Of a stretch of DNA of 64,000 bases, positions 45,688 to 64,000 are shown in pieces (within the stretch, counting starts at the first letter, position 1; every line of letters begins with the position of its first letter). Origin of the DNA: Aureispira sp. CCB-QB1. GTDB taxonomy: Bacteria; Bacteroidota; Bacteroidia; Chitinophagales; Saprospiraceae. The notes beneath the pieces are model-generated. The model was not told where the DNA came from. It ran no database searches and was given only the letters and a program-made list of their open reading frames with translations. The stretch lies in contig CAMBRK010000003.1 of the NCBI GenBank assembly GCA_945870185.1, positions 1 through 64,000 of the forward strand, read 5' to 3'. A program made the translations under genes and the position numbers.

Positions 45688-45960
45688 ATGTGATGTGTGG
45701 TTATGGTCATTTTATCAAAGTGCAAAGTTAATAGAATTGTATGGGTATATGAAAGATTTTCTTATTTTAATTTGAATAGATGGATTATTGATTTTATATA
45801 CCCTATATCACTATTTATCCAGTTGATTGATAGAAATTTTGGTTTGCTAATATCTATTTTTGAAATGGATTTTTATCTTTATCGGGTTGTTTGTCACCTT
45901 CAATCCCATAAAAATGGGTTTTGCTTCAGTATTCTTTGGATTCGCACTTTTTTTGAGTAC

Positions 45961-46017
45961 TCACATCATCATGTGACAATTTAAAAATAAAAATCATTGA
46001 ATTTGTAACTATTTTTG
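45961..46017 (+). promoter_or_regulatory. Shared operator and promoter, copy 1 (response regulator)
   Basis: Inverted repeat TCACATCATCATGTGA at 45961-45976, 33 bases before the -7 element TATTTTTG at 46010-46017; the start codon follows at 46038. Identical operator and spacing occur at 52557 and 59571. There is no TTTG -33 box, so an activator may be needed. Confidence 0.75.
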
Positions 46018-46037
46018 CAACATTAAATGCGAAAGTC

Positions 46038-46679
46038 ATGAGCAACAAGATTAGGGTGGCTATTTACGAAGATAATGCGGGATTGAGAGAGATCCTGGCA
46101 TCTATTATCAGAGAGTCAGAAGAGTTCGAATTGACAGGAGAGTTTGGTCACTGCCTTGATGTGGTGCAAAATACCAAAGCATTTGCCCCTGAGGTCATCA
46201 TTATGGATATAGACATGCCGGGGCGTACAGGCATCGAAGGCGTCCAAGAGTTGAAATCTCATTATCCTGATATAGAAGTCATTATGAATACGGTCTTCGA
46301 TGATGATGATCGAATATTTAATGCCTTAAAAGCAGGTGCTACCGGTTACTTGCTGAAAAAAAATTCATTGGCTACCTTGCTGACAGCCATCAAAGATGTG
46401 AAAAATGGAGGTGCTCCGATAAGCCCTTCTTTAGCCAGAAAGGTGTTACAGTTGCCTTTTGCTGCAGGCAAAGCTTCTGAATCTACCTATAACCTATCTG
46501 AGCGTGAGATAGAAATATTAAAATCTCTTTCCAAAGGCCTTAGTTATAAAATGGTGGCGGGTGAGATGCTCATTAGTTTAGATACAGTACGGACCTATGT
46601 TAAGCGGATTTATGAAAAATTACATGTACATTCAGTCACTGAGGCCGTTCATAAGGTATTTATTGAAAAAAAGAATTAG
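46038..46679 (+). CDS. NarL/LuxR-type response regulator
   Basis: A 213-residue two-component regulator. The receiver domain (about 5-120) has the phosphoacceptor Asp57 in IIMDIDMPG, the acidic pair near residue 12 (YEDNAG) and Lys in LLKKNS. A NarL-type HTH domain (about 148-210, LSEREIEILKSLSKGLSYKMVAGEMLIS...VRTYVKRIYEKLHVHS) follows. It lies directly before, and probably pairs with, the propeller-type histidine kinase. Its promoter carries the shared inverted repeat. Confidence 0.94.
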   Translation: MSNKIRVAIYEDNAGLREILASIIRESEEFELTGEFGHCLDVVQNTKAFAPEVIIMDIDMPGRTGIEGVQELKSHYPDIEVIMNTVFDDDDRIFNALKAGATGYLLKKNSLATLLTAIKDVKNGGAPISPSLARKVLQLPFAAGKASESTYNLSEREIEILKSLSKGLSYKMVAGEMLISLDTVRTYVKRIYEKLHVHSVTEAVHKVFIEKKN

Positions 46680-46722
46680 TTTTATTCCTTTATTTTATTA
46701 TATCTGTAATGCCATAAATATC

Positions 46723-49700
46723 GTGACCATTAAAAACCTTCATATCATCTCGATTTTAAGTTTGTTTGTTTTTGTGTTCTTCCATAACACATCAGGACAA
46801 ACTATGAAGCAGGCGATTATTTTTGACCATTATGGTGCTCTACAGGGATTTAATGCTTCTCAAGCGTTGTGCCTAGAGAAAACTAAAGACGGATTCCTTT
46901 GGATAGGGACAGAACAAGGTTTATTGAAATATGATGGTCATAGTTTTAAATTGTTTCGATCAGATCCATTAGATTCAACCACTATATCGTCCAATTATAT
47001 CAGAAATATAATAGAGGATAAACATGATAGGTTGTGGGTATCTGCATTACCACATCTAAACATTTTTGATACAAAAACTGGTAAAAGTAGAAAAGTAGAT
47101 ATTCCTGCAAGTATTGACAATGCAAAAAAACTCGATATCAGGAGCATGAAATATGATGAAAAAAATGATGTCATTTGGTTGGGAACCAATAAAGGATTGT
47201 TGTATTGCCAGGGAAAAGAAGGTGGTTTAAAGCAAGAAATCATTCCTGATAAAGATATAGATTCTGGAATTTACGATATAGAGATAGATGATCAAGGTAT
47301 TTTTTGGCTTGCTGCAAATGACGGTTTGTGGCGATATGATGCTGAACAATGTACTGTAAAAAACTATCACCATCCCAAGTATGATTCCAATATACGTTTT
47401 GATGATGGATTTATGAGTTTGTATGTTGATAACAGAAATAAGTTTATATGGATTGGAAGTTGGTCTAATGGATTGATGAAATTTGATATGTCTACCGAGA
47501 AAATGGTGGAATATAATTTTGCTGATAAATCAAAAATACAAAATGGTGTTATAACTATTCAACAATCTGGTTTTACAGGAGAAGAGAATATTTTATGGTT
47601 AGGTACTACAGATGGTGTAAAAACCTTTGATATCATAGATGAAAAATTTTATGATTTTAAATCATCCAATCGAGACGACATCAAGAGGATACCAGGCGCA
47701 GGATTTTGTTTTGAACCCACAGACACAGAAGGCATGTGGATCGGTACACATGGAGGACTCCACCGATACGACCCATACAAACAAAATGTAAGAGTGATCG
47801 ATATTTCCTTACCAGATAGCCAGGCTGATTGGGTGTTAGGAGATGTTACTTTTGAAAAAGGTGGTTATATGGATAGCATATTGTGGTTTGGTGTAGCATA
47901 TGAGTCTTTTTTTAAATATGATATAGTCCTTAAGAAAACAGTTCCTGTCCCGTCTGTACTAAAACCTTATTGTAATAAAGTTAAACCATATACATCTTAC
48001 ATTGATTCAAAAAATATTTTGTGGTTATCATCAGAGAAGAAAGGATTTGTAGGATATGATTTGAATTCGGGCAAGCTGGTACTCCCTATTTTTAATATGG
48101 GCGAAAAGACAATACCCCCAATTTTTAAAATTCTCGAAGATGCTGATGGAAAACTCTGGTTAGGGTCTACAACCGGAATGTATATTTTGAATAAAGATCA
48201 AAATGAAATCACCGAGCAGTATGATATACGCAGGTTTCTGGATGAAAACAAACTCTCAGATTTCACTTTTAGATTTACGATAGGTACGAAGGGTAAGGTA
48301 TGGATATTTGCTACACAAAAATATGAAGAAGACGATGCAATGTATAGTTTTGATCCATTATCAAAAGATTTACAATTGTTTACTCAAGACAAGTATCCGG
48401 CACTAAAGAGATTAAAATCCTTAGAATCTGTAGAAAGTATCTCTCCAGGTAAACTGATGATCACATCATTTAATGGGTTTTGTGTTGTCGATATATCTAC
48501 TGAAATACCCACCTTTACCCTTTTTGAAACTTACAATGATAAGCCTCTAGGAGTATTCAATCATATTGCCAAAGACAACAAAGGAAATGTCTGGATGTCA
48601 TCTGACAATGGTGTTACCCGATTTGATGCTCAAACCAACACTATTAGCAATTTTACACATTTTAATTCAAATATGGGGATGACTCCTCAGCCTTTAATTA
48701 CTTTTTCAAAGCTAACGAATACTGTTTATTTATCTCAAAATCTTGCCATAAATACTATAAATCTTGATGATCTAAATATGGCAAAACCGGGAAAAGTCAT
48801 TTTGTCCGACATGAAGATTCTTAATTTTAGTTTTGATATGTTGCCGTATTCTGGTCAGACTTTACCATTGGATTATGATCAAAATAGTATTGATTTGCAT
48901 TTTTCAAATTTAAGTTTTACCAATTCACAAGACAATGCATATCAATACAATCTGAATGGGCAAGATGGCGAATGGATATCTATGACAGACAATCATTTAA
49001 AATTTGATAATCTCGGCTATGGTACTTATTTACTCAAAGTCAGGGCTGAGAATAGTTTTGGTCTGAAAAGTCCGAATGAATTTGAATTAAATATTGTTAT
49101 TAGTCCTCCTTTTTGGCGTACTTGGTGGTTTAATTTATTGATCATAATTTCGATATCTTTTATTATTTACAGTTTTTTTAAATACAGAGATGTACAAAGA
49201 AAAAAGTTAGACAAAATAAGGCATACTATAGCTCGTGACCTGCATGACGATATGGGTAGTACGCTCTCACACATCAGGATGATGAGCGAACGTGAAGCTA
49301 TGAGAAAAGAAGCCAACCAATCATTCCAAACCATTGCTGACAAAACAGCAGAAGTGATGAATAATATGACTGAAATTATCTGGAGTATCAATCCTAAAAA
49401 TGATAGCCTGAAAAACATCATAGGAAAAATTCAGGAATTTGCTATCGATACTTTGGAGCCCATGGGTATAGAAATTAGTTTTGATATAGAAGAAGTACCT
49501 TACCATGTTAAACTAAATCCTGAAGACCGAAGGCATTTTTACCTTATTTTTAAGGAAGCCATTAATAATACAGCCAAATACAGCAAGGCAAGTAAAGTTC
49601 AATATTCATTTAAAATCGAAAAAGGAAATATGGTCATCCAGTTTGCAGATAATGGATTGGGATTTGACCCTATGCTCATCTCTAGAGGCAACGGTCTCAA

Positions 49701-49794
49701 AAATATGGCTAGCAGGGCACAAGCTTTGCATGGCAAAATTGATATACAAACGACAAATAATGGAACCATCATTTTATTAATCCTAAAAAATTGA
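46723..49794 (+). CDS. Two-component sensor histidine kinase with periplasmic propeller
   Basis: About 1023 residues. A signal-like hydrophobic segment (residues about 8-25, ILSLFVFVFF) is followed by two-component-regulator propeller repeats (FLWIGTEQGLLKYDG, VIWLGTNKGLLYC and many more) forming periplasmic beta-propellers, a Y_Y_Y domain (YQYNLNGQDGEWISM), one membrane helix (WFNLLIIISISFIIYSFF), and a HisKA_3 domain with His at bases 49243-49245 (ARDLHDDMGSTLS) plus HATPase (EAINNTAKYS, DNGLGFD, GNGLKNM). No receiver or HTH is fused. The start is uncertain: GTG 46723 gives a good signal peptide. It pairs with the response regulator ending 43 bases upstream. Confidence 0.88.
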   Translation: MTIKNLHIISILSLFVFVFFHNTSGQTMKQAIIFDHYGALQGFNASQALCLEKTKDGFLWIGTEQGLLKYDGHSFKLFRSDPLDSTTISSNYIRNIIEDKHDRLWVSALPHLNIFDTKTGKSRKVDIPASIDNAKKLDIRSMKYDEKNDVIWLGTNKGLLYCQGKEGGLKQEIIPDKDIDSGIYDIEIDDQGIFWLAANDGLWRYDAEQCTVKNYHHPKYDSNIRFDDGFMSLYVDNRNKFIWIGSWSNGLMKFDMSTEKMVEYNFADKSKIQNGVITIQQSGFTGEENILWLGTTDGVKTFDIIDEKFYDFKSSNRDDIKRIPGAGFCFEPTDTEGMWIGTHGGLHRYDPYKQNVRVIDISLPDSQADWVLGDVTFEKGGYMDSILWFGVAYESFFKYDIVLKKTVPVPSVLKPYCNKVKPYTSYIDSKNILWLSSEKKGFVGYDLNSGKLVLPIFNMGEKTIPPIFKILEDADGKLWLGSTTGMYILNKDQNEITEQYDIRRFLDENKLSDFTFRFTIGTKGKVWIFATQKYEEDDAMYSFDPLSKDLQLFTQDKYPALKRLKSLESVESISPGKLMITSFNGFCVVDISTEIPTFTLFETYNDKPLGVFNHIAKDNKGNVWMSSDNGVTRFDAQTNTISNFTHFNSNMGMTPQPLITFSKLTNTVYLSQNLAINTINLDDLNMAKPGKVILSDMKILNFSFDMLPYSGQTLPLDYDQNSIDLHFSNLSFTNSQDNAYQYNLNGQDGEWISMTDNHLKFDNLGYGTYLLKVRAENSFGLKSPNEFELNIVISPPFWRTWWFNLLIIISISFIIYSFFKYRDVQRKKLDKIRHTIARDLHDDMGSTLSHIRMMSEREAMRKEANQSFQTIADKTAEVMNNMTEIIWSINPKNDSLKNIIGKIQEFAIDTLEPMGIEISFDIEEVPYHVKLNPEDRRHFYLIFKEAINNTAKYSKASKVQYSFKIEKGNMVIQFADNGLGFDPMLISRGNGLKNMASRAQALHGKIDIQTTNNGTIILLILKN

Positions 49795-49926
49795 CCATGT
49801 ATAACAAAAGTTATATAGATTTGTACAAATAAAAGTTTTAATCTTGCACTCATAAAAAATAAGAGAACCATTTATTTTAATAAAAATATTTTGAAATTTA
49901 TTTTTATCCCCTTTAAATTCATAATC

Positions 49927-49990
49927 ATGAAACGCTTTAAAGCCACCATATTTAGTTTATTCTTGTTGTGTGGCAAAGCATCGATCTTCC
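49927..49990 (+). pseudogene. Signal-peptide coding segment out of frame with the propeller gene
   Basis: ATG 49927 begins MKRFKATIFSLFLLCG, a good signal-peptide start, but this frame hits a stop at 50014. The downstream propeller protein is in another frame from 49956 (after a TAG at 49953). A frameshift or small deletion between about 49956 and 49975 is required to join them. Confidence 0.6.
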
Positions 49991-51926
49991 GAATGCTAGA
50001 TATTTCCATGATGTAAAATTCAGTAATAAACCCGGAAAAATATGGGCGGGTGGCAATGGCCTTTACTCTTCAGATGATAATGGAGTTATCTGGAAGACGC
50101 ACAGGTTTGGAGATTTTTCATCAGTTGTGATAGACCCAAATAAACCAGATACAGCCTTTATTAGTGATTTTGGTAAGGGTATCTTCAGAACCTTTGATGG
50201 TGGTACTACTTGGACTAAACTGACTAATGGGCTTCCTTCAGAAAATTTCAACAGGATTGAACTCACTATATGTGACCAGCAACCTAACGTACTTTATGCA
50301 TGGATTTGTAATGAATTAAACGCTTCAAAAGGAGTTTGGAAAACCATAGATCATGGTGAAACCTGGACGGAGTGTACCGTTCTTAATTCAAATTACGAAC
50401 CTGCTGATAATATTCATCTGGAAGCCGGTGACTTTCATTCTACCATCAGTGTATCACCTACAGATCCCGATAAAGTGCTCATTGGTGGATGGTGGTACGC
50501 TGTTACGGATAACGGAGAGATATTTGTAGGTCCCAACTCAGGATCTCATGTGGACTATCACCATGCTACATGGGACGACGAAGGGAAAACCATTTTTATG
50601 GCTACTGATGGAGGCGTCAGTTATATGGATTTTGATGAAATTACCATTTTTGAAGATAATGTAAGCAAGATAAAAACAGATCTGATCAAAGTGCCCACCT
50701 TACAATTTGTGAGTGTATCTACAGGTAAAAAGTCCGATTTTATTGTAGGTGGTACTCAAGATAATGGGTATATATTTTACCGTTCGAGCAATGACAAATG
50801 GTATTATAGTGGCGGAGATGGTTCAGATGTATCAGCACATTATGAGGATAACCATACATTTCATGGAACTGATGGTGTATTTGGAGAACCACTTACTTTT
50901 AGAAACGCCAGCAACATGACAGAGTTGCCAAATGAGTTGTATGATATAAACGCGGGCTTGAGACCTAGTGGTGAGTGGTTCAGACATGTAGGCAACTCCT
51001 ACAGTCCCGAGATCATTCTATATACACAGACAGATCAGCATTTTTATTATTCGACCAATCTTGGCACCCAATGGATTCCATACGATGTATCTGCTTTTGA
51101 TGTAGGCGCCATTAATGCCATGTGTAGTCCTCACGACCCTAAACCCATAGCATTTGTTTCCGGCAATGGTAGTCCCGCTACATCCATCATGAAGGTAGAT
51201 TTGACAAAACTTACCCATGAATTTGTATCTGAAGGGTTACCCATCCAAAAAAACATCTCTTGGCCCCAAGTGTATACCAGTCCTTCGCCCAAACTAAAAC
51301 ACAAAGTGTACACCTTTATACATGCGCCAAATGGACATACTCCAAGTGCTAAGATATTTGCATCTGATGCAACATCCATAAAATGGGTCAATACCACCGG
51401 TAACTTACCTGATATACCTATTACCAGTATGTTTGTGCATCCTGAAGATGAAAATTTTATTTTGGTAGGGACGGATGGATTTGGTGTTTTTGCTACTCAA
51501 TACGGTGGTAAAAACTGGAATCCCTACAATACTGACCTGCCGCAAGGATGTCTAATCACTGACTTTGATTACCAAATACAGGGCGGAAAACTGCATGTCA
51601 TCATGGCCACGTATGGCAACGGCCTCTACAGATCAGAACTGCCTTCCAATAAAGTGCAAACAATGGACACAAAACAAGAAAACCCACGCATGACCATACA
51701 TACGCACGGTGATATAGCCAGAATTTTCCTGCCTTCCGCATTAACCAATGACATCCAAATCAAAGTATTAGATATCAAAGGTAGTTCCGTTGCTAAATTA
51801 TATAACATCACATTCCTAAGCGAACATATTTTGGAGACATCATTACCTGTTTTACCTGCAGGTATAAACATTTTTGATGTAAGGGTAGGGAAGGATCATT
51901 ATTCGCAAAAGGTAGTGATACCTTAA
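49968..51926 (+). CDS. Secreted beta-propeller (BNR/sialidase-like) protein with T9SS sorting domain
   Basis: A 652-residue frame. It consists of BNR/Asp-box type propeller repeats (SSDDNGVIWKTH, RTFDGGTTWTKL, KTIDHGETWTEC, TQYGGKNWNPYN; sites of S/T-x-D-x-G-x-T/x-W) up to about residue 560, then a T9SS type A sorting domain (DIQIKVLDIKGSSVAKLY ... LPAGINIFDVRV). It would be exported by T9SS and act on or bind extracellular polymers. It lacks an in-frame signal peptide: the frame opens with GTG 49968 (MWQSIDLP) and a signal-peptide start lies out of frame at 49927. Either it is a pseudogene or the sequence has an error. Confidence 0.75.
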   Translation: MWQSIDLPNARYFHDVKFSNKPGKIWAGGNGLYSSDDNGVIWKTHRFGDFSSVVIDPNKPDTAFISDFGKGIFRTFDGGTTWTKLTNGLPSENFNRIELTICDQQPNVLYAWICNELNASKGVWKTIDHGETWTECTVLNSNYEPADNIHLEAGDFHSTISVSPTDPDKVLIGGWWYAVTDNGEIFVGPNSGSHVDYHHATWDDEGKTIFMATDGGVSYMDFDEITIFEDNVSKIKTDLIKVPTLQFVSVSTGKKSDFIVGGTQDNGYIFYRSSNDKWYYSGGDGSDVSAHYEDNHTFHGTDGVFGEPLTFRNASNMTELPNELYDINAGLRPSGEWFRHVGNSYSPEIILYTQTDQHFYYSTNLGTQWIPYDVSAFDVGAINAMCSPHDPKPIAFVSGNGSPATSIMKVDLTKLTHEFVSEGLPIQKNISWPQVYTSPSPKLKHKVYTFIHAPNGHTPSAKIFASDATSIKWVNTTGNLPDIPITSMFVHPEDENFILVGTDGFGVFATQYGGKNWNPYNTDLPQGCLITDFDYQIQGGKLHVIMATYGNGLYRSELPSNKVQTMDTKQENPRMTIHTHGDIARIFLPSALTNDIQIKVLDIKGSSVAKLYNITFLSEHILETSLPVLPAGINIFDVRVGKDHYSQKVVIP

Positions 51927-52556
51927 TAATGTCATGCTGTACCACAGCTTTCGCATATTTCTTTTGGTTCAAAGCTTTGCTCGATGTAGCTTCGGCTCCA
52001 CAGTTTCCGCACACTGCAGCTGGTTGCGCTCAGCCACCGGCTTCGTGCTTGATGGAGCGTGGTTATTGAGCATGTCATACTGTGTGTGTTATTGGTGTCA
52101 TGCTAAAGCTTGATTAAACGCAATAGAATGAAGCCGAAATCAGAAGCGTGGCTTTGCTTCACCATGATCGTCGAAGGTTCTGGCCGCTATGGGGCAGACA
52201 AGTGTAACTTCGATACTATATCCGACCGGTCTCTGACCGAAAATGATGCTGCTCTAGGCATGATATACCAATCCTGACCAATACCAGCGCTGCGCCATAA
52301 ATTTGAAACCGGATGAATTTCATACACAACATGACGTAGATCTACCTACATTTCATTGTAGTAGACAAGCCTTAATCTCAATTTTAATCTCAAACTTTGT
52401 CTCAACCTAAGTCTTGACCTTAACCTTAATCTCAATCTTAATCTAAGCCTTAAGCTTAATCTCCATCTAAACCATTTCCACCTACTAAACCATCTAAACC
52501 ACCACCTTAACACCTTCACACTTTCACACCTTTACAAATTCACAATTCCCAAATTC
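51927..52556. other. Intergenic region with low-complexity tract
   Basis: No convincing ORF. The first 400 bases are moderately GC-richer than the genes around them. From 52371 to 52475 runs a CTTAAT/CTCAAT hexamer tract, then a G-poor C/A/T tract (52475-52556, CACCTTAACACCTTCACACTT-like) leading straight into the shared operator at 52557. Confidence 0.6.
52371..52475 (+). repeat. CTTAAT/CTCAAT hexamer tract
   Basis: About 100 bases made almost only of variants of CTTAAT (CTTAAT, CTCAAT, TTTAAT, CTTAAC, CTAAGC). The same kind of tract occurs in short form at 21693-21722 before mazG. Confidence 0.75.
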
Positions 52557-52613
52557 TCACATCATCATGTGACAGACGAAATTTGATACCTTCCTTTAAT
52601 GGGCATAATTTTG
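52557..52613 (+). promoter_or_regulatory. Shared operator and promoter, copy 2 (LytTR gene)
   Basis: Inverted repeat TCACATCATCATGTGA at 52557-52572, a TTTG -33 element at 52582-52585 and the -7 element TAATTTTG at 52606-52613, with 20 bases between -33 and -7. The best start codon (52637) follows at 23 bases. Spacing from repeat to -7 box is 33 bases as in the other two copies. Confidence 0.82.
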
Positions 52614-52636
52614 CACTAAATATATTGAAAAGCAAT

Positions 52637-53050
52637 ATGAAATTAGTAAAAGAAGCATATCCCAAAACCGATCTTAAGATAGATGCGGAACCCATCATCC
52701 TTCGTCATGAGCCATCGCTTCATGCTGCTATAGAAGCGTCAGGTCGCGTTATATTGCCCATCCCTGGAGGTTATCAATGCTGTAAACCTGAAGATATCTT
52801 ATTTCTGAAAGCCGAGAGCAACTACACGGAGATTCATTATCTTGATGGTTCCAAAAAATTACTTTCCAAGACGCTGAAAGTATTAGAAGAAGTCTTGCCT
52901 GCACATAGGTTTTTTAGAGTTCATAAAAGTTATGTAGTTAATGCAGCTCATATCACGGACATCATCCTATCGACCCATGAGCGAGCTGTAAAGCTGGCAC
53001 GTGGGTTTACCATACCGGTGAGTAGGGATAAGAAAGGCATACTTATGTAA
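52637..53050 (+). CDS. LytTR-domain DNA-binding regulator
   Basis: A 137-residue protein with a C-terminal LytTR DNA-binding domain (about 40-135): PEDILFLKAESNYTEIHYLDGSKKLLSKTL, HRFFRVHKSYVVNAAHI. There is no receiver domain, so it is a stand-alone LytTR regulator. I use ATG 52637, because the -7 box lies at 52606-52613; the longer TTG frame at 52583 would start upstream of the transcription start. It sits just before the secreted-protein cluster, which it may control. Confidence 0.88.
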   Translation: MKLVKEAYPKTDLKIDAEPIILRHEPSLHAAIEASGRVILPIPGGYQCCKPEDILFLKAESNYTEIHYLDGSKKLLSKTLKVLEEVLPAHRFFRVHKSYVVNAAHITDIILSTHERAVKLARGFTIPVSRDKKGILM

Positions 53051-53160
53051 TAGCGAAGTATGTCATAAAAAGAAATATTAAATGAGTTTAAATTAGTCAT
53101 TGTCATTTGACAAAAAATTAATTAAATATTATTCATCACTTGTTAAAATATCATAAAAAA

Positions 53161-54270
53161 ATGAGACAAATTTTTTATGTACTTTCAGTACTTTTTATTT
53201 TTGAGAATGCCAAAACCCAAAATGTGGGAGTTGGTACAACTAATCCTGTTGCTAAATTCACTATCCAAGGAACAGGAAGCAATCCTAGTATTCCAAGTGC
53301 AACTTCTACTGGTATTTTGAGGATTGGGATAGCAAATGACGAAGGTCTTGATATTGGTAAACAATCAGCTACTCCATATTCTAGCTGGATTCAAGCTGGA
53401 TTTAATGCGAACGCTGATCCGTTATCATTACAACCTCTTGGTGGTAATTTAGGTATTGGTACCCTGTCGCCAAATGCACAAATCCAACTAGGAAACACTG
53501 CTTCAAATAGAAAAATTGTTTTGTATGAAGGAGTGAATAATGACCACCAGTTTTATGGTCTAGGAATCAATACATCAATGCTTCGCTATCAAGTTGATGC
53601 GACCACTTCAAATCATATATTTTTTGCTGGTGCAAGTGCATCATCTTCCAATGAAATTATGCGCATTCAGGGAAATGGTAATGTAGGTATTGGGACCCCA
53701 TCTCCTACAGATAGATTAGATGTAAATGGAAATATTGCCATGAGAAGTTTAGGAATTTTTGAATTCGGAAAAGGGGTTGTAGGAAAAGAAGTTAATGCAG
53801 GAAAAGTTGGCTATAATGCGTTTGGTCAAGAAGGATTAACTTTTGTCGGTGGTGGGACTAATACTAATAATAGGAAAGTATTTTTTTACGCGGAGGGTGG
53901 TGCATCTTTTAGTGGAAATATTAATGCACTGACAACCATATCAGTAGGTACATCCAATGTGCCGGCAGGTTATAAAGTTGCGGTAGATGGTAAGATTATC
54001 GCTGAAGAATTAAGAATTCAAAATTCAACTGCATGGCCAGATTATGTTTTTGAAAAAGATTATGATCTTATGCCACTGAAAGATGTAGAAAATCATATTA
54101 CAAAACATAAGCATTTGCCAGATGTACCATCAGCGAAAGAAGTAACCACAGATGGTTTTGCTGTAGGTGAAATACAGAAAGTATTGTTAAGGAAAATAGA
54201 GGAGCTCACTCTATATATTATTGAGCAAGAGAAAAGAATACAAGGATTAGAGCTTAAATTAAAAAAATAA
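53161..54270 (+). CDS. Secreted fibre-like protein with C-terminal coiled coil
   Basis: A 369-residue protein. Signal peptide of about 19 residues (ENAKTQ), then repeated short GVGTxxP-type motifs (NVGVGTTNPVAKFTIQG, NLGIGTLSPNAQIQLG, NVGIGTPSPTDRLDVNG), typical of Bacteroidota tail-fibre-like proteins. The end (DYVFEKDYDLMPLKDVENHI, HLPDVPSAKEV, then a coiled coil EELTLYIIEQEKRIQGLELKL) resembles the conserved C-terminal region of such proteins, related to the endosialidase-chaperone context. ATG 53161 is chosen over TTG 53140. It begins the secreted cluster and is 6 bases before the next gene. Confidence 0.8.
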   Translation: MRQIFYVLSVLFIFENAKTQNVGVGTTNPVAKFTIQGTGSNPSIPSATSTGILRIGIANDEGLDIGKQSATPYSSWIQAGFNANADPLSLQPLGGNLGIGTLSPNAQIQLGNTASNRKIVLYEGVNNDHQFYGLGINTSMLRYQVDATTSNHIFFAGASASSSNEIMRIQGNGNVGIGTPSPTDRLDVNGNIAMRSLGIFEFGKGVVGKEVNAGKVGYNAFGQEGLTFVGGGTNTNNRKVFFYAEGGASFSGNINALTTISVGTSNVPAGYKVAVDGKIIAEELRIQNSTAWPDYVFEKDYDLMPLKDVENHITKHKHLPDVPSAKEVTTDGFAVGEIQKVLLRKIEELTLYIIEQEKRIQGLELKLKK

Positions 54271-54276
54271 TATATC

Positions 54277-56760
54277 ATGAAATTAATATTTAATTTATTT
54301 TTAATTTCTATCTTAATCATAATGGGAGAAATCCAAGGAGCTTATGGTCAAGAATGGACACAATATGTCAATACAAAAGATAATTATAGCACAGTAATTA
54401 ATAATATTGATCAACATTTTGAAAAAAATGGTAAAGGTCGTGGAAGTGGTTTTAAACAATATATGAGATGGAGATATAAGATGGATGCAGCTATTCACCC
54501 AAATGAAACTATAAAGAATATTGAAGTCTTACATCAAGGAGAGTATGAGTCTTTTGCAAGAAGAAGACCAGAAATTACAAGTAGATCTACCAATGGTGAT
54601 TGGGAAAGTTTGGGCCCGTATTCAGCTTCGGGCAATTCTGGTGTAGGAAGAATTAATTGTATGGCTTTTCATCCGACTAATCCTAATATAATGTGGGCGG
54701 GTTCGCCAAATGGTGGCTTATGGAAAACAACAGATGGTGGTAGTTCATGGACGATCATCACTAACTATTTTGTTTCCCTTGGCATAAGTGGTATCGCAGT
54801 AGATTATACAAATCCTGATATCATTTATATAATGACTGGCGATGGTGATGGAGCTGATTCTTGGTCTATTGGCGTTTTAAAAACTACCGATGGTGGAGTC
54901 AATTGGCAAAAAACAGGATTGTCTTTTGGTGTTACATCTTTGGTTAGAGGTTTTTTTATCAAAATTCATCCAACAAACCCTTTAATACTTCATGTGGGCA
55001 CCACTCAAGGGCTTTATACTAATAGCAATGGAGGAGCTGGGAGTTGGGGACAAACATTTCTTGCAAATTGGATTTGGGATTTGGAATATAAACCCAATGA
55101 CCCTAATATATTTTATTTGGCCACTAACGGAGGTATTGTTAGGATAAATAATGGGGTAGTTTATACTTATACTGGCGGACCAAGTATTTATGACCGTATT
55201 GCTTTAGCGGTTACTCCAGCTGCCCCTAATAATGTTTATGCCTTGTTTGGAGGAAGTGTTCCTGACCCAGGAGCTTTTACAGGACTTTTTCTCTCTACTG
55301 ACAGTGGAAATTCTTATACAGCTCAAAGTTTTTCACCAAATATTTTAGGTTGGGGTAATGGTGGTGATTTAGGTAATCAGGCCAATTATGATCTTTGTTT
55401 GGCTGTACATCAGACTGATGCTAATCGGGTTTACATTGGTGGAATAAATACATGGACTTCAACCAATGCAGGAGTTAATTGGAGCCGAATGAGTCATTGG
55501 AATGGTAGCGGCTCTCCATATGTGCACGCTGATTTTCATAATTTATACTATTTAAATGGTACCTTATTTGCCTGCAATGATGGAGGGGTTTATAAAACAA
55601 CTAATCATGGGGCCAATTGGACAGAATTGTCTAGTGGCATCAATACTATGCAGTTTTACTATATTGATTTTCACGATAATTCCTGGATGGGAGGTACGCA
55701 AGATAATGGTACACATAAATCTACACTTGGCAATCTTCAATCCAATCAAATTGGTGGCGGGGATGGGTTTGGATGTCAATGGCACAATACTGATCATAGT
55801 ATCCAATTTATATCAAATCAGAGTAGAATTACTAGGAAACAACCAGGAATTGCCGTAGATTATCAAATTTATGAAGTGAGTAATGGGTTTTGGTTTTCAG
55901 AACTTTCTATGTCTAAAAATAACAATGGACATTTATGGGTAAATCGTGGGGAATCGCTTTTTCGGGGCAACCAAAATGTATTTCCTTGGGATTGGTCATG
56001 GCCTTCTACAGGGAGTGATGCCATTTTAACTGCTGATATAAGAGGTTATGAGCAAGGTGTAAATAATACAAATATCATGTACGTTGTAAGCCCGGTCGAA
56101 ATTATAAAATCAACTAATGTTAATACACTTCCTAGCACTTGGACTTTAATAACACATCCATCACCTGGCACAATTTTACAAAATGTAACTGTTGATCCAG
56201 CAAATGCTAATAGAGTATGGGTTGTTTGCTCTGGATTTGACGCAGGTAATAAAGTCTTCAAATCTGAAACGGGTGGTTCATCTTGGGTTAATATATCTGG
56301 GACATTGCCAAATGTTGAAATAAGATCCATAGTTTATGATACTCCTGGAAGTGACAATATATATATAGGCACTGATTTAGGCGTGTTTTACAGAAATAGC
56401 ACAATGAGTGACTGGCTTTACTTTTCTAACAATCTTCCACCAGCAAATGTAACTTCATTAAAAATTTCTGGTAATTATCTTTATGCTGGAACTTATGGAA
56501 GAGGTATGTGGAGATCAACTAAATTCTCTACTTGTCCTGAAAACCTTACATTAACTCAAGCTAATGATCCAGGCACAATTTATAATCATGGAAAACAGAT
56601 ACACCATGCATCCAATTCGATAACAAATAGTAGAATTGTTTCTGGCACTTTTGGTACAGAAGCCAGATATACATCAGGTAACTTTATAGAATTTACAGAT
56701 GGCTTCCAAGGACTTACAGGCACTTTTATTGAAGCTAAAATAGGTGGATGTCCGGAGTGA
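54277..56760 (+). CDS. Secreted beta-propeller protein (sortilin/BNR-like) with C-terminal coat-hanger-type domain
   Basis: An 827-residue secreted protein. Signal peptide ending at about residue 24 (AYGQ). A propeller with BNR motifs follows: GRINCMAFHPTNPNIMWAGSP, GGLWKTTDGGSSWTII, VLKTTDGGVNWQKT, VYKTTNHGANWTEL, then a second propeller-like region. The last ~60 residues (IHHASNSITNSRIVSG, GNFIEFTDGFQGLTGTFIEAKI) form a short repetitive domain like the coat-hanger stack at the C-terminus of many T9SS cargo proteins. It has no classic type A sorting domain, so export by T9SS is inferred. Confidence 0.85.
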   Translation: MKLIFNLFLISILIIMGEIQGAYGQEWTQYVNTKDNYSTVINNIDQHFEKNGKGRGSGFKQYMRWRYKMDAAIHPNETIKNIEVLHQGEYESFARRRPEITSRSTNGDWESLGPYSASGNSGVGRINCMAFHPTNPNIMWAGSPNGGLWKTTDGGSSWTIITNYFVSLGISGIAVDYTNPDIIYIMTGDGDGADSWSIGVLKTTDGGVNWQKTGLSFGVTSLVRGFFIKIHPTNPLILHVGTTQGLYTNSNGGAGSWGQTFLANWIWDLEYKPNDPNIFYLATNGGIVRINNGVVYTYTGGPSIYDRIALAVTPAAPNNVYALFGGSVPDPGAFTGLFLSTDSGNSYTAQSFSPNILGWGNGGDLGNQANYDLCLAVHQTDANRVYIGGINTWTSTNAGVNWSRMSHWNGSGSPYVHADFHNLYYLNGTLFACNDGGVYKTTNHGANWTELSSGINTMQFYYIDFHDNSWMGGTQDNGTHKSTLGNLQSNQIGGGDGFGCQWHNTDHSIQFISNQSRITRKQPGIAVDYQIYEVSNGFWFSELSMSKNNNGHLWVNRGESLFRGNQNVFPWDWSWPSTGSDAILTADIRGYEQGVNNTNIMYVVSPVEIIKSTNVNTLPSTWTLITHPSPGTILQNVTVDPANANRVWVVCSGFDAGNKVFKSETGGSSWVNISGTLPNVEIRSIVYDTPGSDNIYIGTDLGVFYRNSTMSDWLYFSNNLPPANVTSLKISGNYLYAGTYGRGMWRSTKFSTCPENLTLTQANDPGTIYNHGKQIHHASNSITNSRIVSGTFGTEARYTSGNFIEFTDGFQGLTGTFIEAKIGGCPE

Positions 56761-56803
56761 TCTTATCTTTTAAAATATCAAGTAAATTTACAAAAGTCAT
56801 AAA

Positions 56804-59500
56804 ATGAAAACCACCTTATACTTCTTTTTTTTCCTAATCTTAAGTGTAAATAAAACATATGCCATCACCATCAACTGGGATGGAGGCGGCAATGGCACCA
56901 CTTGGACTGATCCTTTAAATTGGGATTGTGATTGTTTGCCGGGCGCCAATGATTATGCTGTGTTGCTTACAAATAATTCCGTAGTGATCCCCACAGGTGC
57001 TTCTGTTCATGTCGATGAGATTTTGGCTTATTGGAGTTTGACTGTATCTAGTGGAGCTACCCTTACAGTTGATGATAAAATTCGTTTGTGGTTTGGTAGT
57101 GACTTTGTGAATAATGGTACCATAAATATCAATGGTGAAGGACTTTATGTTAATGACAGTAGAGCTATTATAAACAATGGCACGATCCATTTTAATGGAA
57201 CGGTAGGTGCTAGTTTGATACTCTCGTCTTTCGGGACGGATACTATTTCTTTTATCAATAATGGTATACTCCATTGGAATAGCAACTTAGGGTTTTTGCA
57301 AAAATCTGGTAAAACAGGTTTTATCAATCAATCGTCAGGGTCTATTAGTTTTGATCAAGAATCCAATGGGCTCAATAATCTCGGTGGAACATTTATCAAT
57401 CATGGTAATATTGGCAATAAAGGCAAAATTTTTAATTCCGGCACTTTTACCAATCAAGCCACGGGACAAATCAATTTGAACAATCTAAACAGTGAAGGTA
57501 TCTCAAATGATGGCCATTTGACCAATCATGGTTTTGTAGATATTTCCAATACAGGTACGCAAGTTTGTGTCACCAATAATTGGGTATGGAATAGCAATGG
57601 TACCCTGAATGTAGATGGAAAAAACATCTTATTAAATAATCACGAGATACATCTCAATGGCCCCACGGTCTTTAACGCAGATATTACTTATAGTGGCCTT
57701 GTTAACAACGGTGACCTATTTTTGGGCGGGAGTGATTACAATACACAACTCAATTGTCAATGGACCAATAATGCAGGTAAGGTCGTGATCATCGAAGCTT
57801 GCGAAAATGTAATACACCAAGGGCCATTTATCAATCAAGGTACCTGGCACAATAATGGTGTTTTTAGGCATACGCATAGTGATATTCCCACATTAGGCAC
57901 TTTTAATAATTCAGGTGTTTTTTACAGCAATGTGGATTTGATTGGATTTCCACCGCCTATAATGCCTGAACCTTCGGCCAATAATGGTATTCATCTGAAA
58001 AAAATTCAAGGCCAGCAGTGCGCAGGTACCCCAATTAATGATATATTTACAGGAAATTTGGTCAATATCAATCAAATTCCTTCTGGAGTTTTTACCAATG
58101 CAGGACTGACCATATCGGCAGGAAGTCTGGATTTTGCAAATAAAATATTTACACCCAATGCTGCTTGTCATGGCCTTACTACACTTTATATTTCAGTACA
58201 ACGGAATGGCTGCGGGCAAGATGTTTATGAATTGAAATTTGTCCTTCCCATCTACGCACCTACTACGTATTATGAAGATACGGATTTTGATGGATTTGGC
58301 AATATAGCCAGTCCGTTGTTGGTAGCATGTGCCGTGGCACCTTATGGCTACTCACTGTTCAGTACGGACTGTGATGACGGTAATCCTAGTGTATATCCGG
58401 GAGCACCTGAAGTGTGTAGTGACAAGGATTATAACTGTGATGGTATGATCACCGGAACCAATCCTGCACCGACATGGTATAGAGACTTTGATATGGATGG
58501 ATATGGCGATGCTTCGAAAAGTATAGTAAATTGTACTGCTTTAGTAGGATATGTGGCTTTAGGCAATGACTGCAACGACAATGATGGTTTCATTTACCCT
58601 TCGGCACTCGAAGCGTGCAATAATATAGACGACGATTGTGATGGACTCATTGACGAGGATTTTCCACCTACAACGGTCACTTTTAATGGAAGTGTAGATT
58701 CGGATTGGTTTGATGCCACCAATTGGACACCTGCTATGGTCCCCGGGTATTGCGTCGATGCCGTCATCCCAGCTGGTATGATGGTCACCGCAGGTGGTGT
58801 GGGCATGATGGCCACATGTAGGTCTATGAGTATAGCGGCTACATCTTCTGTTTCTGTAAATGATAATGTGCAGTTCAATATTACGGGTGGAACTATGTTC
58901 GGTATCTCCAATGCAGGTACCTTGACCTTAAATAATGATTCCTACACCAACATCCAATACATCAATGGCAATGGTGTAGAAAATAGCAACGCCATCATCA
59001 TGAATGGAAATGCCATCCTGTACATCAGCGTGACGTCTCAAAGCAGCATTCGCAATCTATCAGGAGGTACGATAACCATAAACAGCAATAATGGTCTGGA
59101 TATGAATGCCGCTACTGAAAATGCCATAAACAATTCGGGAACCATCAACAGAAATGGAGCTTTTAATGCCAATAATATCACAGGGAGTGCGATAAAAAAC
59201 GATGGCACATTTAATAATCAAGGTGACTTATTTATCAATGCCATTGGTCTTCCAGGGTGGTTTGTGGAGAATCTGTCCGGTGGCATCATCAATAACAATG
59301 CCTTACAATTATGGACTTTCCCGATACCAGGAACTTTTTATAATGTATCAGACATGGGATTGATCAATCATTCAGGCTCGACCTTCAATAATTATGGTAC
59401 GCTTCAGTTTTTTGGTCATAGGATAGCAGGCTCCGGTGCCTTCGTGAGTTTTACAGGTAGCATGATAGAAGGGTGTGTGCCGGGATTGGGATGTCCGTAA
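56804..59500 (+). CDS. Large secreted repeat protein with MopE-like metal-binding motifs
   Basis: An 898-residue secreted protein. Signal peptide of about 20 residues (NKTYA). Residues about 20-430 contain many NNGTI/FNNSG/NHG repeats in a beta-helix or stacking pattern. About 500-620 holds two MopE-type calcium/copper-binding motifs (DCDDGNPSVYPGAPEVCSDKDYNCDG and DCNDNDGFIYPSALEACNNIDDDCDG, each longer than quoted elsewhere). Residues 640-890 repeat the NNG pattern. The end (SFTGSMIEGCVPGLGCP) resembles the neighbour's C-terminus. Probably an adhesive or metal-binding surface protein. Confidence 0.82.
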   Translation: MKTTLYFFFFLILSVNKTYAITINWDGGGNGTTWTDPLNWDCDCLPGANDYAVLLTNNSVVIPTGASVHVDEILAYWSLTVSSGATLTVDDKIRLWFGSDFVNNGTININGEGLYVNDSRAIINNGTIHFNGTVGASLILSSFGTDTISFINNGILHWNSNLGFLQKSGKTGFINQSSGSISFDQESNGLNNLGGTFINHGNIGNKGKIFNSGTFTNQATGQINLNNLNSEGISNDGHLTNHGFVDISNTGTQVCVTNNWVWNSNGTLNVDGKNILLNNHEIHLNGPTVFNADITYSGLVNNGDLFLGGSDYNTQLNCQWTNNAGKVVIIEACENVIHQGPFINQGTWHNNGVFRHTHSDIPTLGTFNNSGVFYSNVDLIGFPPPIMPEPSANNGIHLKKIQGQQCAGTPINDIFTGNLVNINQIPSGVFTNAGLTISAGSLDFANKIFTPNAACHGLTTLYISVQRNGCGQDVYELKFVLPIYAPTTYYEDTDFDGFGNIASPLLVACAVAPYGYSLFSTDCDDGNPSVYPGAPEVCSDKDYNCDGMITGTNPAPTWYRDFDMDGYGDASKSIVNCTALVGYVALGNDCNDNDGFIYPSALEACNNIDDDCDGLIDEDFPPTTVTFNGSVDSDWFDATNWTPAMVPGYCVDAVIPAGMMVTAGGVGMMATCRSMSIAATSSVSVNDNVQFNITGGTMFGISNAGTLTLNNDSYTNIQYINGNGVENSNAIIMNGNAILYISVTSQSSIRNLSGGTITINSNNGLDMNAATENAINNSGTINRNGAFNANNITGSAIKNDGTFNNQGDLFINAIGLPGWFVENLSGGIINNNALQLWTFPIPGTFYNVSDMGLINHSGSTFNNYGTLQFFGHRIAGSGAFVSFTGSMIEGCVPGLGCP

Positions 59501-59570
59501 TCTCATAACCTTATTCTTAATCTGCCTTCATTGCATTACAGCAGACAGGTCTCAATCTTTTTCTAAATGC

Positions 59571-59627
59571 TCACATCATCATGTGACAGACAGTTTTTAT
59601 AAATGATATACAAGTCCTTTACCTTTG
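59571..59627 (+). promoter_or_regulatory. Shared operator and promoter, copy 3 (collagen/Rhs operon)
   Basis: Inverted repeat TCACATCATCATGTGA at 59571-59586 and -7 element TACCTTTG at 59620-59627, again 33 bases apart. The region upstream (59510-59570) is also similar to the region upstream of copy 2, sharing TTCATTG...AGACAGGTCTCAATC-like sequence. The gene start follows at 59671. Confidence 0.78.
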
Positions 59628-62291: not shown

Positions 62292-63461
62292 ATGTCAAAG
62301 AATAGGTTTCTATTCCTAATCGTCATGTTTTGTTTGTTGCAAACTGGCTATAGCCAATATACACTTGACATTATGAGACCCAATGAATTTGCACTCAAAT
62401 CAGCAGATCTTTGGAATTGTGTTATTAACAACTCTGGAAACGAAAAGCCCAATGTATTTTTATATGGCATATTATCAGAAAAGAAAAAAGGGAAATTATT
62501 GGAAATAGAATCAGGTAGATTTGCTTTAGCCAATGGAATTACAATGTTTAATACAAGTAATTATGATGCTCTGAAAAATGAAAAAGTACTGTATTCTGAC
62601 AAAACATTTGAAGATCACATTTTTAGAACTAATTCGCTACCTAATGGAGCCTACACCTTATGTATTACTTTAGTTAGGGAAGGAAGTCTCCAGCAATTAT
62701 TTACATCTTGTATCGATATAGATGTAAATAAGATGACGTCCATGAATCTCATTTTACCTTATGATCAAGATTCTATATGTGAGCAAAACATGATGTTTCT
62801 TTGGATGCCAATAAGTCAAGAAAATAGTATCGTTTCAAGTTACACATTAAATATTTACGAAGTTTTAAAACATCAAACACCCATTGCTGCAACGTTAAAA
62901 AATGCTCCCTTTTATATAGAAAAGAATATTTCGTCTACTCAATTTCAAGTGCCAAACATGATAGTTCCTTTTAAAGATAAATCGCAATATGCATGGCAAA
63001 TTACCGCTTTTGATGATAAAAACAGGGTTTTGACTAGATCAGAAGTATGGTCTTTTTACAATAAAAATTGCATGGGTGCCGATGGCTTAACTGAAACTGT
63101 TGAAGATGGTATACCGCCAAAACCCATAAAAAAGAAACAGAAATTGGTCAGTTACTTTTCGATGTATGATAAGTACAATGCCCACGCTGTATATGTAAAT
63201 GCTGATACGCTGAGAGTATTGTATCCGACATATTTGAATGAAGAAAAAGTGTTTTGTCAAATTTTTGATGGTAGCGGAAAGTCGATTTTTTCAGAAGAAA
63301 AATCTGTAAATGATGCTAGTAATTTATTGGTCTTTCCTTTTGCGCAAATCAAAGCGATTCCAGATCAAAATTATACTATGGAAATTACCAATAGGGTTGG
63401 AAAAAGAAAATTCCTAAAGTTCAAAAGGTTAAAAGTTGTACCAAAACCCAATGGCAAATAA
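62292..63461 (+). CDS. Secreted protein of unknown function in collagen/Rhs cluster
   Basis: A 389-residue exported protein: signal peptide of about 21 residues (LLQTGYSQ), then beta-rich sequence with possible fibronectin-III-like segments (FLWMPISQENSIVSSYTLNI, YAWQITAFDDKNRVLTRSEVWSF). The second half (about 275-389) has several lysine-rich strands. It is not recognised as a named family. It lies between the collagen-like and Rhs genes and may be an assembly partner; that is inference. Confidence 0.72.
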   Translation: MSKNRFLFLIVMFCLLQTGYSQYTLDIMRPNEFALKSADLWNCVINNSGNEKPNVFLYGILSEKKKGKLLEIESGRFALANGITMFNTSNYDALKNEKVLYSDKTFEDHIFRTNSLPNGAYTLCITLVREGSLQQLFTSCIDIDVNKMTSMNLILPYDQDSICEQNMMFLWMPISQENSIVSSYTLNIYEVLKHQTPIAATLKNAPFYIEKNISSTQFQVPNMIVPFKDKSQYAWQITAFDDKNRVLTRSEVWSFYNKNCMGADGLTETVEDGIPPKPIKKKQKLVSYFSMYDKYNAHAVYVNADTLRVLYPTYLNEEKVFCQIFDGSGKSIFSEEKSVNDASNLLVFPFAQIKAIPDQNYTMEITNRVGKRKFLKFKRLKVVPKPNGK

Positions 63462-63520: not shown

Positions 63521-64000
63521 ATGAACCAGTCCAACAAAATCAGAGAATATTATGCTAAGTTTTTACTGTGCATCATGTTCATAAATATATTTAATCTTCC
63601 AAACCAATCTTTGTTTGCTCATTCAACATCCCACATTTATGTTGACAAAAAATCAGCTGAATTTAATAATAATGATTACGCACCAAAATCCAAAATAGAT
63701 GAGACCAAAATTGAAAATTTGGATTTACCTAAAAAAGAAATAAATACTAATAATGCTGTTCATCAGATAGTAATGTTGACTGACAAACAAGACCAAGGCG
63801 GTCCAAGTACTCCTGAAGTTCAAAAATTTACACCTGCAAGTCATAGTTCTATGGTAGATCCTTTTACGGGCGATTTTACCTACAACATCCCATTGTTTGA
63901 TGTTGAAGGTTATCCGGTTAATCTGGCATATAGTGGCAATATTGGTGTTAATGATGAAGCTTCATGGGTTGGACTAGGATGGAATCTAAATCCTGGTGCG
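63521..64000 (+). CDS. Rhs/YD-repeat-type giant secreted protein, N-terminal part (runs off the window)
   Basis: The frame opens at ATG 63521 and stays open to the last base (160 codons, 5' part only). It begins with a hydrophobic signal (KFLLCIMFINIFNLPNQSLFA), then a variable linker. From about residue 116 the conserved opening of the Bacteroidota Rhs-like family appears: MVDPFTGDFTYNIPLFDVEG, YPVNLAYSGNIGVN, and EASWVGLGWNLNPGA. These proteins are usually very long, with YD repeats and a variable C-terminal domain. The operon upstream (collagen-like and unknown secreted proteins) and this start place it in one transcription unit. Confidence 0.85.
   Translation, partial: MNQSNKIREYYAKFLLCIMFINIFNLPNQSLFAHSTSHIYVDKKSAEFNNNDYAPKSKIDETKIENLDLPKKEINTNNAVHQIVMLTDKQDQGGPSTPEVQKFTPASHSSMVDPFTGDFTYNIPLFDVEGYPVNLAYSGNIGVNDEASWVGLGWNLNPGA

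Follow-up and report, generated by a model that had tools for sequence, protein, structure and literature searches.

A phased palindrome as the candidate operator of a LuxR-type response regulator and its surface-fibre regulon in Aureispira

How do three promoters in one stretch of Aureispira DNA come to carry the same palindrome at the same distance from their -7 elements, and which protein reads it? The stretch, hereafter called the window, comprises the 64,000 nucleotides at positions 1 to 64,000 of contig CAMBRK010000003.1 (Aureispira sp. CCB-QB1, assembly GCA_945870185.1, forward strand). An original prediction made from the letters alone held that one regulator, possibly the response regulator (RR) encoded at 46038, controls the whole locus. 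The analysis described here argues for the RR. Judged from genome comparison, the palindrome TCACAT-N4-ATGTGA is very probably the operator of this RR, which would be phosphorylated by a kinase and would serve as an autoregulating activator of a surface-fibre regulon.

The 16-base core, TCACATCATCATGTGA, was located by pattern search on the plus strand at exactly the three places predicted, and in each case 33 bases separate it from a -7 box of the form TAnnTTTG downstream, again as predicted (coordinates are collected in the table below). An identical 19-mer, CTCACATCATCATGTGACA, begins one base before each core, and the flanks outside it are unrelated. Its earlier description as a 19-bp inverted repeat was an overstatement because symmetry does not extend to the outer C and CA; the symmetric part consists of inverted hexamers with a 4-nucleotide spacer (6-4-6). 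Scanning the window with up to three mismatches gave six matches (three places, both strands) against a mean of 1.14 in shuffled sequence, and none of 100 shuffles reached six. In the complete genome (4.9 Mb, 168 contigs) there are four exact copies of the core and one copy with a single mismatch. All four exact copies lie on contig C3 within less than 34 kb, in a single orientation and at gap 33 from a box, so the element is not a common repeat lacking a fixed position at promoters. The fourth copy, at C3:79776 outside the window, has the box TAATTATG, one letter off the consensus. A relaxed search for TCACATNNNNATGTGA with one mismatch returned 24 matches in this genome versus 17 for the reversed control, and should be considered mostly noise.

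The RR combines a receiver with a GerE helix-turn-helix (HTH), the composition of the NarL/FixJ (LuxR-HTH) family; its best match in the PDB is VraR (5hev, E 9e-26). Relatives of it are common, being found at E <= 1e-30 in 31 of a set of 60 genomes (its own and 59 relatives). The sequence TCACATNATNATGTGA occurred in four of these 60, its own included, and these are precisely the four with an RR of at least 77% identity (100, 92, 85 and 77%); in all four the palindrome stands upstream of the RR gene at gap 33 or 34. The kinases of the three relatives (G003, G007 and G008) are, in descending order of identity, 75, 50 and 39% identical to that of the window, versus 77-92% for the RRs. Kinases thus diverge far faster than RRs, which suggests that signals change while the output stays constant. 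Further sites in these relatives precede genes of similar kinds. The one in G003 stands before homologues of the small T9SS-tail protein (26%; T9SS, type IX secretion system) and the collagen-like protein (40%) of the window, with the box CAGTTTTG, one letter off, at gap 33. In G007 the other site precedes a YadA-head protein followed by a protein whose T9SS-tail match falls just below cut-off, and in G008 the other sites precede two proteins that are fibre-like by eye, one of them without any Pfam match.

Palindromes were then counted at RR relatives more widely. A scan of the named genomes gave 75 relatives, and upstream regions were examined for 41 (L074-L113 and L117, including L091, for which there are just 3 bases of upstream sequence). 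The other 34 loci (L114-L116, L118-L148) are 26-47% identical, many belong to other phyla, and several are partial matches. Note that L074, L075 and L076, which we take to be the loci of G007, G003 and G008, overlap with the 60-genome set. A palindrome with at most one mismatch was present within 300 bp upstream of the RR gene in 13 of the 41: in all eight relatives of at least 62% identity (L074-L081, four with one mismatch), in four of nine at 55-58% (L082, L083, L084 and L086; L091 counts among the nine), and, as the exact 16-mer, at L097, where the RR is 48% identical. When 60 of the 89 permuted half-sites were used instead, the mean number upstream of RRs was 0.017 and the maximum 1 (versus 13 real), and the mean total over the loci was 1.6 with a maximum of 7 (versus 24 real). 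The 24 palindromes in these 672,913 bases comprise 13 at RR genes and 11 elsewhere, and 9 of the latter precede T9SS-tail, collagen, YadA-head, fibre-like or LytTR open reading frames (ORFs). Locus L080 has four further sites, before a lipoprotein-like ORF lacking a family match (site at 14105), a LytTR protein, a Fib_succ_major protein and a T9SS-tail/collagen operon, which is near the set seen in the window; in L079 a palindrome at 8691 lies between a divergent kinase gene and a T9SS-tail operon. An in-phase TAnnTTTG box accompanies 14 of the 24 exactly and 5 with one mismatch.

Spacing was assessed by seeking the pattern TCACATNNNNATGTGA-N{12,42}-TANNTTTG in 398 genomes of the family. This gave 52 palindrome/box pairs in 28 genomes, while the reversed-pattern control gave 3 among the matches listed. 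Gaps were 22-24 in 32 pairs (class B), 32-34 in 16 (class A, 8 genomes), 28 in three and 12 in one, so that 48 of the 52 lie at two positions one helical turn apart; 25 of the 28 site-bearing genomes have in-phase sites. A uniform null for this clustering returns 7e-30, a value that is too small because the genomes are related. With the box set at -12 to -5 (Flavobacterium psychrophilum numbering), the operator centres fall near -53.5 in class A and -43.5 in class B. Such fixed phase belongs to the architecture of an activator promoter. Using thresholds of E <= 1e-50 for the window RR and E <= 1e-38 for a class B RR, 27 of 48 in-phase sites were found less than 20 kb from an RR gene (class A 12/16, class B 15/32), compared with about 0.8 expected, an expectation that ignores contig breaks. 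Presence was also compared in 56 genomes, namely the 28 bearing sites and 28 of the 370 without a match, hand-picked and mostly large and complete. The window RR, at an identity of at least 56% (E <= 1e-50), was present in 7 of the 8 genomes with sites at gaps 32-34 and in none of the 48 others (Fisher P 3e-8, uncorrected for kinship among genomes). Together, the upstream palindromes (8/8 and 13/41) and the phased pairs (48/52) support the original prediction of a single regulator, possibly the RR itself. A side observation concerns gap 28: a homologous palindrome, TCACATTATAATGTGA, occurs at this out-of-phase distance in G178, G356 and G317 (L212 1686), in G178 before a DUF6909 gene, and probably belongs to another regulator.

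In the mechanism that we propose, the Reg_prop sensor kinase encoded just downstream would phosphorylate the RR, and an RR dimer would bind the palindrome on one face of the helix, centred near -53.5 and just upstream of the -33 region. The bound RR would then recruit the housekeeping polymerase and so activate transcription. Predicted targets comprise the operon of the RR itself (positive autoregulation), the LytTR regulator/fibre operon, the T9SS-tail/collagen/Rhs operon, and the operon of a beta-helix protein outside the window. Operon extents and the fibre or secreted-protein functions are likewise predicted. A positively autoregulated activator is the best reading because the geometry is ComA-like, the site lies upstream of the core promoter, the alternative positions are one turn apart, and an operator is placed at the RR's own gene.

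Several observations weigh against this reading. G318 has two gap-33 sites yet no RR match at E <= 1e-50, and in G002 a one-mismatch site at gap 33 (C214:21363, L068/L213) precedes a Sortilin-like protein (its T9SS-tail match falls below cut-off) in a genome whose best RR is just 43% identical. Four relatives at 55-58% identity (L085, L087, L088 and L089) have near-identical recognition helices and no palindrome upstream; the recognition helix thus fails to separate site-bearing RRs from close relatives without a site. Five of the 24 palindromes at RR loci have no in-phase box (L077 14143, L078 14125, L079 8691, L080 15835 and L097); in L077 and L078 the site concerned precedes the T9SS/collagen operon, and in L097 it is the one at the RR gene. 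Locus L079, whose RR is of the window type (68%), has gap 22 at the RR promoter and gap 34 at its target site. A TTG 18-21 bases before the box, the -33 place, was found in just 6 of 16 class A promoters (8 of 32 in class B), which fits activator dependence without proving it. Finally, the genomes are related, so the counts are not independent.

Four other explanations were weighed. The sign of control is unreadable from sequence, and the RR might use the same operator as a repressor of its own and the fibre operons, with derepression on signal. A class B palindrome, at about -51 to -36 (F. psychrophilum numbering), does reach the -33 region and could, when occupied, stand in the way of polymerase. 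Set against this are the 48 of 52 pairs at two positions one turn apart upstream of the -7 box (overlapping positions lay outside the search) and the absence of TTG from the -33 place in 10/16 class A and 24/32 class B promoters, which is the pattern of an activator that touches polymerase; repression is therefore regarded as unlikely. The LytTR protein encoded at 52637 as the common regulator of all sites is highly improbable. Sites followed by a LytTR gene occur in the window, L080 and L151, but reading the ORF lists revealed none adjoining the sites of the G003 locus, of contig C118 in G007 or of G008, with most ORFs there unscanned by hidden Markov models and the rest of those genomes unsearched. 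By contrast, an RR gene lies on the same contig as these sites, except for G008 contig C198. Direct repeats are the usual targets of LytTR proteins, and the element conserved across sites is an inverted repeat (no search for direct repeats around the promoters was made). The LytTR protein was rejected as a master regulator on the neighbouring genes in relatives, and its gene looks instead like a target of the regulon.

The original prediction also likened the arms to CRP/FNR half-sites turned inside out, and CRP-type HTH domains do occur in this genome. CRP half-sites carry the letters TCACA/TGTGA, the consensus being TGTGA-N6-TCACA, but the arm order here is reversed, TCACA-N6-TGTGA. All 10 genomes of the genus have the HTH_Crp_2 domain (in 9 it exceeds the curated cut-off), whereas TCACATNATNATGTGA was found only in the 4 that have this RR. 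A CRP/FNR-family protein therefore does not explain the distribution of sites; the suggestion lacks support, and binding by such a protein is hardly plausible. That identical 19-mers occur at three places could also point to a dispersed repeat or mobile element with no regulatory role, a reading to which we give practically no credence. The flanks are unrelated, orientation and box spacing are fixed, exact copies number only four, and other assemblies retain the palindrome before RR genes whose products are as little as 48% identical; this reading is also contradicted by the constancy of phase at 48 of the 52 places.

Class B sites accompany a second RR, about 40% identical to that of the window, which is present in 18 of the 20 class B genomes at E <= 1e-48. 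This link is looser because 13 of the 28 genomes that lack a perfect site/box pair have the second RR as well (E <= 1e-48), a further point against the general scheme. Both classes occur together in G007 and G008, where the five class A sites (gaps 33-34, CATC/CATT) include four on the contig of the class A RR, and three of the four class B sites (gaps 22-24, CAAA/CAAG/CAAC) adjoin the class B RR. Tentatively, and with more doubt than confidence, paralogous LuxR-type RRs sharing the half-site TCACAT might be kept apart by the operator centre and a one-turn position code, with class A (CAT-type centres near -53.5) answering to the window RR and class B (CAA-type centres near -43.5) to its relative. 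Two things speak against a strict family-wide code: in L079 the promoter of the RR, which is of class A type, has gap 22, and CATC or CAAA centres turn up elsewhere in the opposite class (G101, G092 and G318). If true, however, the code would mean that promoter position besides sequence decides which two-component system drives which operon. Pfam scans of downstream genes, performed on hand-chosen genes under the sites, gave a mixed set of class B targets (S74-chaperone, lectin/T9SS-tail, LuxR-HTH, LytTR, thioredoxin-like and SnoaL-like proteins, and several without a match), while an SprB/T9SS-tail target in G318 sits at gap 33.

Table. Operators, promoter boxes and genes of the window, and stand-alone-regulator genes at related loci.
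Feature	Position	Strand	Remarks
Operator 1, TCACAT-CATC-ATGTGA	45961..45976 (19-mer 45960-45978)	+	Conserved upstream of RR orthologs
-7 box TATTTTTG	46010..46017	+	Gap 33 from operator 1
RR, receiver plus LuxR-type (GerE) HTH	46038..46679	+	About 200 amino acids; Response_reg 8.8e-22 and GerE 6.5e-16, both above cut-off
Sensor kinase ORF: Reg_prop propeller, Y_Y_Y, HisKA_3, HATPase_c	46597..49794	+	Domain search
Sortilin-Vps10-like protein ORF, 652 amino acids	49968..51926	+	Downstream of kinase
Operator 2	52557..52572	+	Exact core
-7 box TAATTTTG	52606..52613	+	Gap 33; TTTG at 52582-52585 compatible with a -33 element
LytTR DNA-binding protein, no receiver	52637..53050	+	LytTR 1.3e-18; ORF listed from 52583
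376-amino-acid protein	53140..54270	+	Secreted and tail-fibre-like by eye; no match in Pfam/NCBIfam scans
827-amino-acid protein	54277..56760	+	Sortilin-Vps10 plus GCX_COOH C-terminal domain
898-amino-acid protein	56804..59500	+	MopE metal-binding motifs
Operator 3	59571..59586	+	Exact core
-7 box TACCTTTG	59620..59627	+	Gap 33 from operator 3
Small T9SS-tail protein, 167 amino acids	59671..60174	+	Leads collagen/Rhs operon; Por_Secre_tail 1.1e-10
Collagen-like protein, 685 amino acids	60179..62236	+	Collagen 2.9e-22
389-amino-acid protein	62292..63461	+	Same gene row as collagen-like gene; no family match
2147-amino-acid protein, N-terminal portion	63521..64000	+	Extends beyond window end
Stand-alone regulators heading target operons	window 52637-53050; L080 15510-15809; L151 4346-4804; L189 2979-3224; L188 1203-1472		

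The kinase ORF overlaps the RR gene as listed, and its real start probably falls after the RR stop. A homologue (35% identity) of the 652-amino-acid Sortilin-Vps10-like protein comes after the RR and kinase genes in G003. The start of the LytTR gene given in the original prediction (ATG 52637) is plausible because the listed ORF begins upstream of the -7 box. For the 2147-amino-acid protein at the end of the window, NCBIfam and Pfam scans yielded no family; beyond the window its row continues with a DUF6443-like protein (below cut-off) and an Rhs-core protein. The fourth site precedes a right-handed beta-helix protein and a 158-amino-acid, lipoprotein-like ORF without a family match.

Several target operons open on a small DNA-binding protein that stands alone (LytTR or LuxR-type HTH, no receiver), after which comes a larger protein that is probably secreted (last row of the table), as if each surface-protein cassette had local control. 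At L187 (3163-6486) a single open frame joins an N-terminal LuxR-type HTH to an M43 peptidase and a PPC domain; it is possibly a genuine fusion, possibly an artefact of the frame. Degenerate short repeats lie just upstream of some operators, with CTTAATCTCAAT at window positions 52371-52560 and AAGGTTAAGG-like repeats ahead of the two sites on contig C118 of G007. One site of class B type, at gap 23 and without a clear forward gene, was present in the Aureispira genome itself (G000) at C4:79786 (L014 9787-9802); an IS1595-family transposase ORF (L014 9865-10443) begins on the opposite strand about 30 bases past its -7 box. The RR search found no clear class B RR in this genome, and the site is possibly a relic promoter severed by the IS1595-family element.

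Regulators of this kind are well known; within the literature searched, what looks new is the operator, its regulon and the pattern of two positions. The exact 16-mer was not found in that literature and, in the portions of those sources that were covered, neither were a description of such a regulon or system nor an operator for any relative of this RR. A concrete operator, regulator and target list is thereby proposed for one two-component system of a family represented here chiefly by metagenome-assembled genomes, and collagen-like, YadA-head and T9SS-tail proteins are tied to one signal path. Being short and set at a fixed phase, the operator lends itself to searches of individual genomes from which regulons can be proposed. 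The pair of positions a helical turn apart also offers a way to test how paralogous regulators that share a half-site are kept separate.

Among known systems, the RR resembles VraR, DesR and NarL (NarL/FixJ family, PDB) in its receiver, GerE HTH and size, a likeness that is probably too distant for transferring DNA specificity. In the cited portions of the sources, the Bacteroidota sigma-A promoter is described as -7 TAnnTTTG and -33 TTTG (PMC7366714, PMC9723704), with the -7 box at -12 to -5 in F. psychrophilum (PMC9723704). All three promoters of the window share the -7 box; unlike typical sigma-A promoters, most of those collected here (10/16 class A, 24/32 class B) are without TTG at the -33 place and have a palindrome upstream. 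Two-component control linked to type IX secretion in Bacteroidota has been described for PorX/PorY (PMC10951265, in the part consulted). As far as that description goes, the present system differs in having a LuxR-HTH RR that adjoins substrate operons. The geometry of the operator is that known for ComA, the LuxR-type RR of Bacillus subtilis whose kinase is ComP. According to the cited part of one account, ComA binds two inverted hexamers 4 nucleotides apart in a type I position, and the spacer length is critical (PMC4797271). Measured against that account, the two systems share a LuxR-type RR, inverted hexamers with a 4-nucleotide spacer and a site upstream of the promoter, and they differ in the half-site, TCACAT here and TTGCGG in ComA, so that the element has ComA-like geometry and is not a ComA box. 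The system described here is further distinguished from ComA by its Bacteroidota -7 promoter, its Reg_prop kinase and its T9SS/collagen targets.

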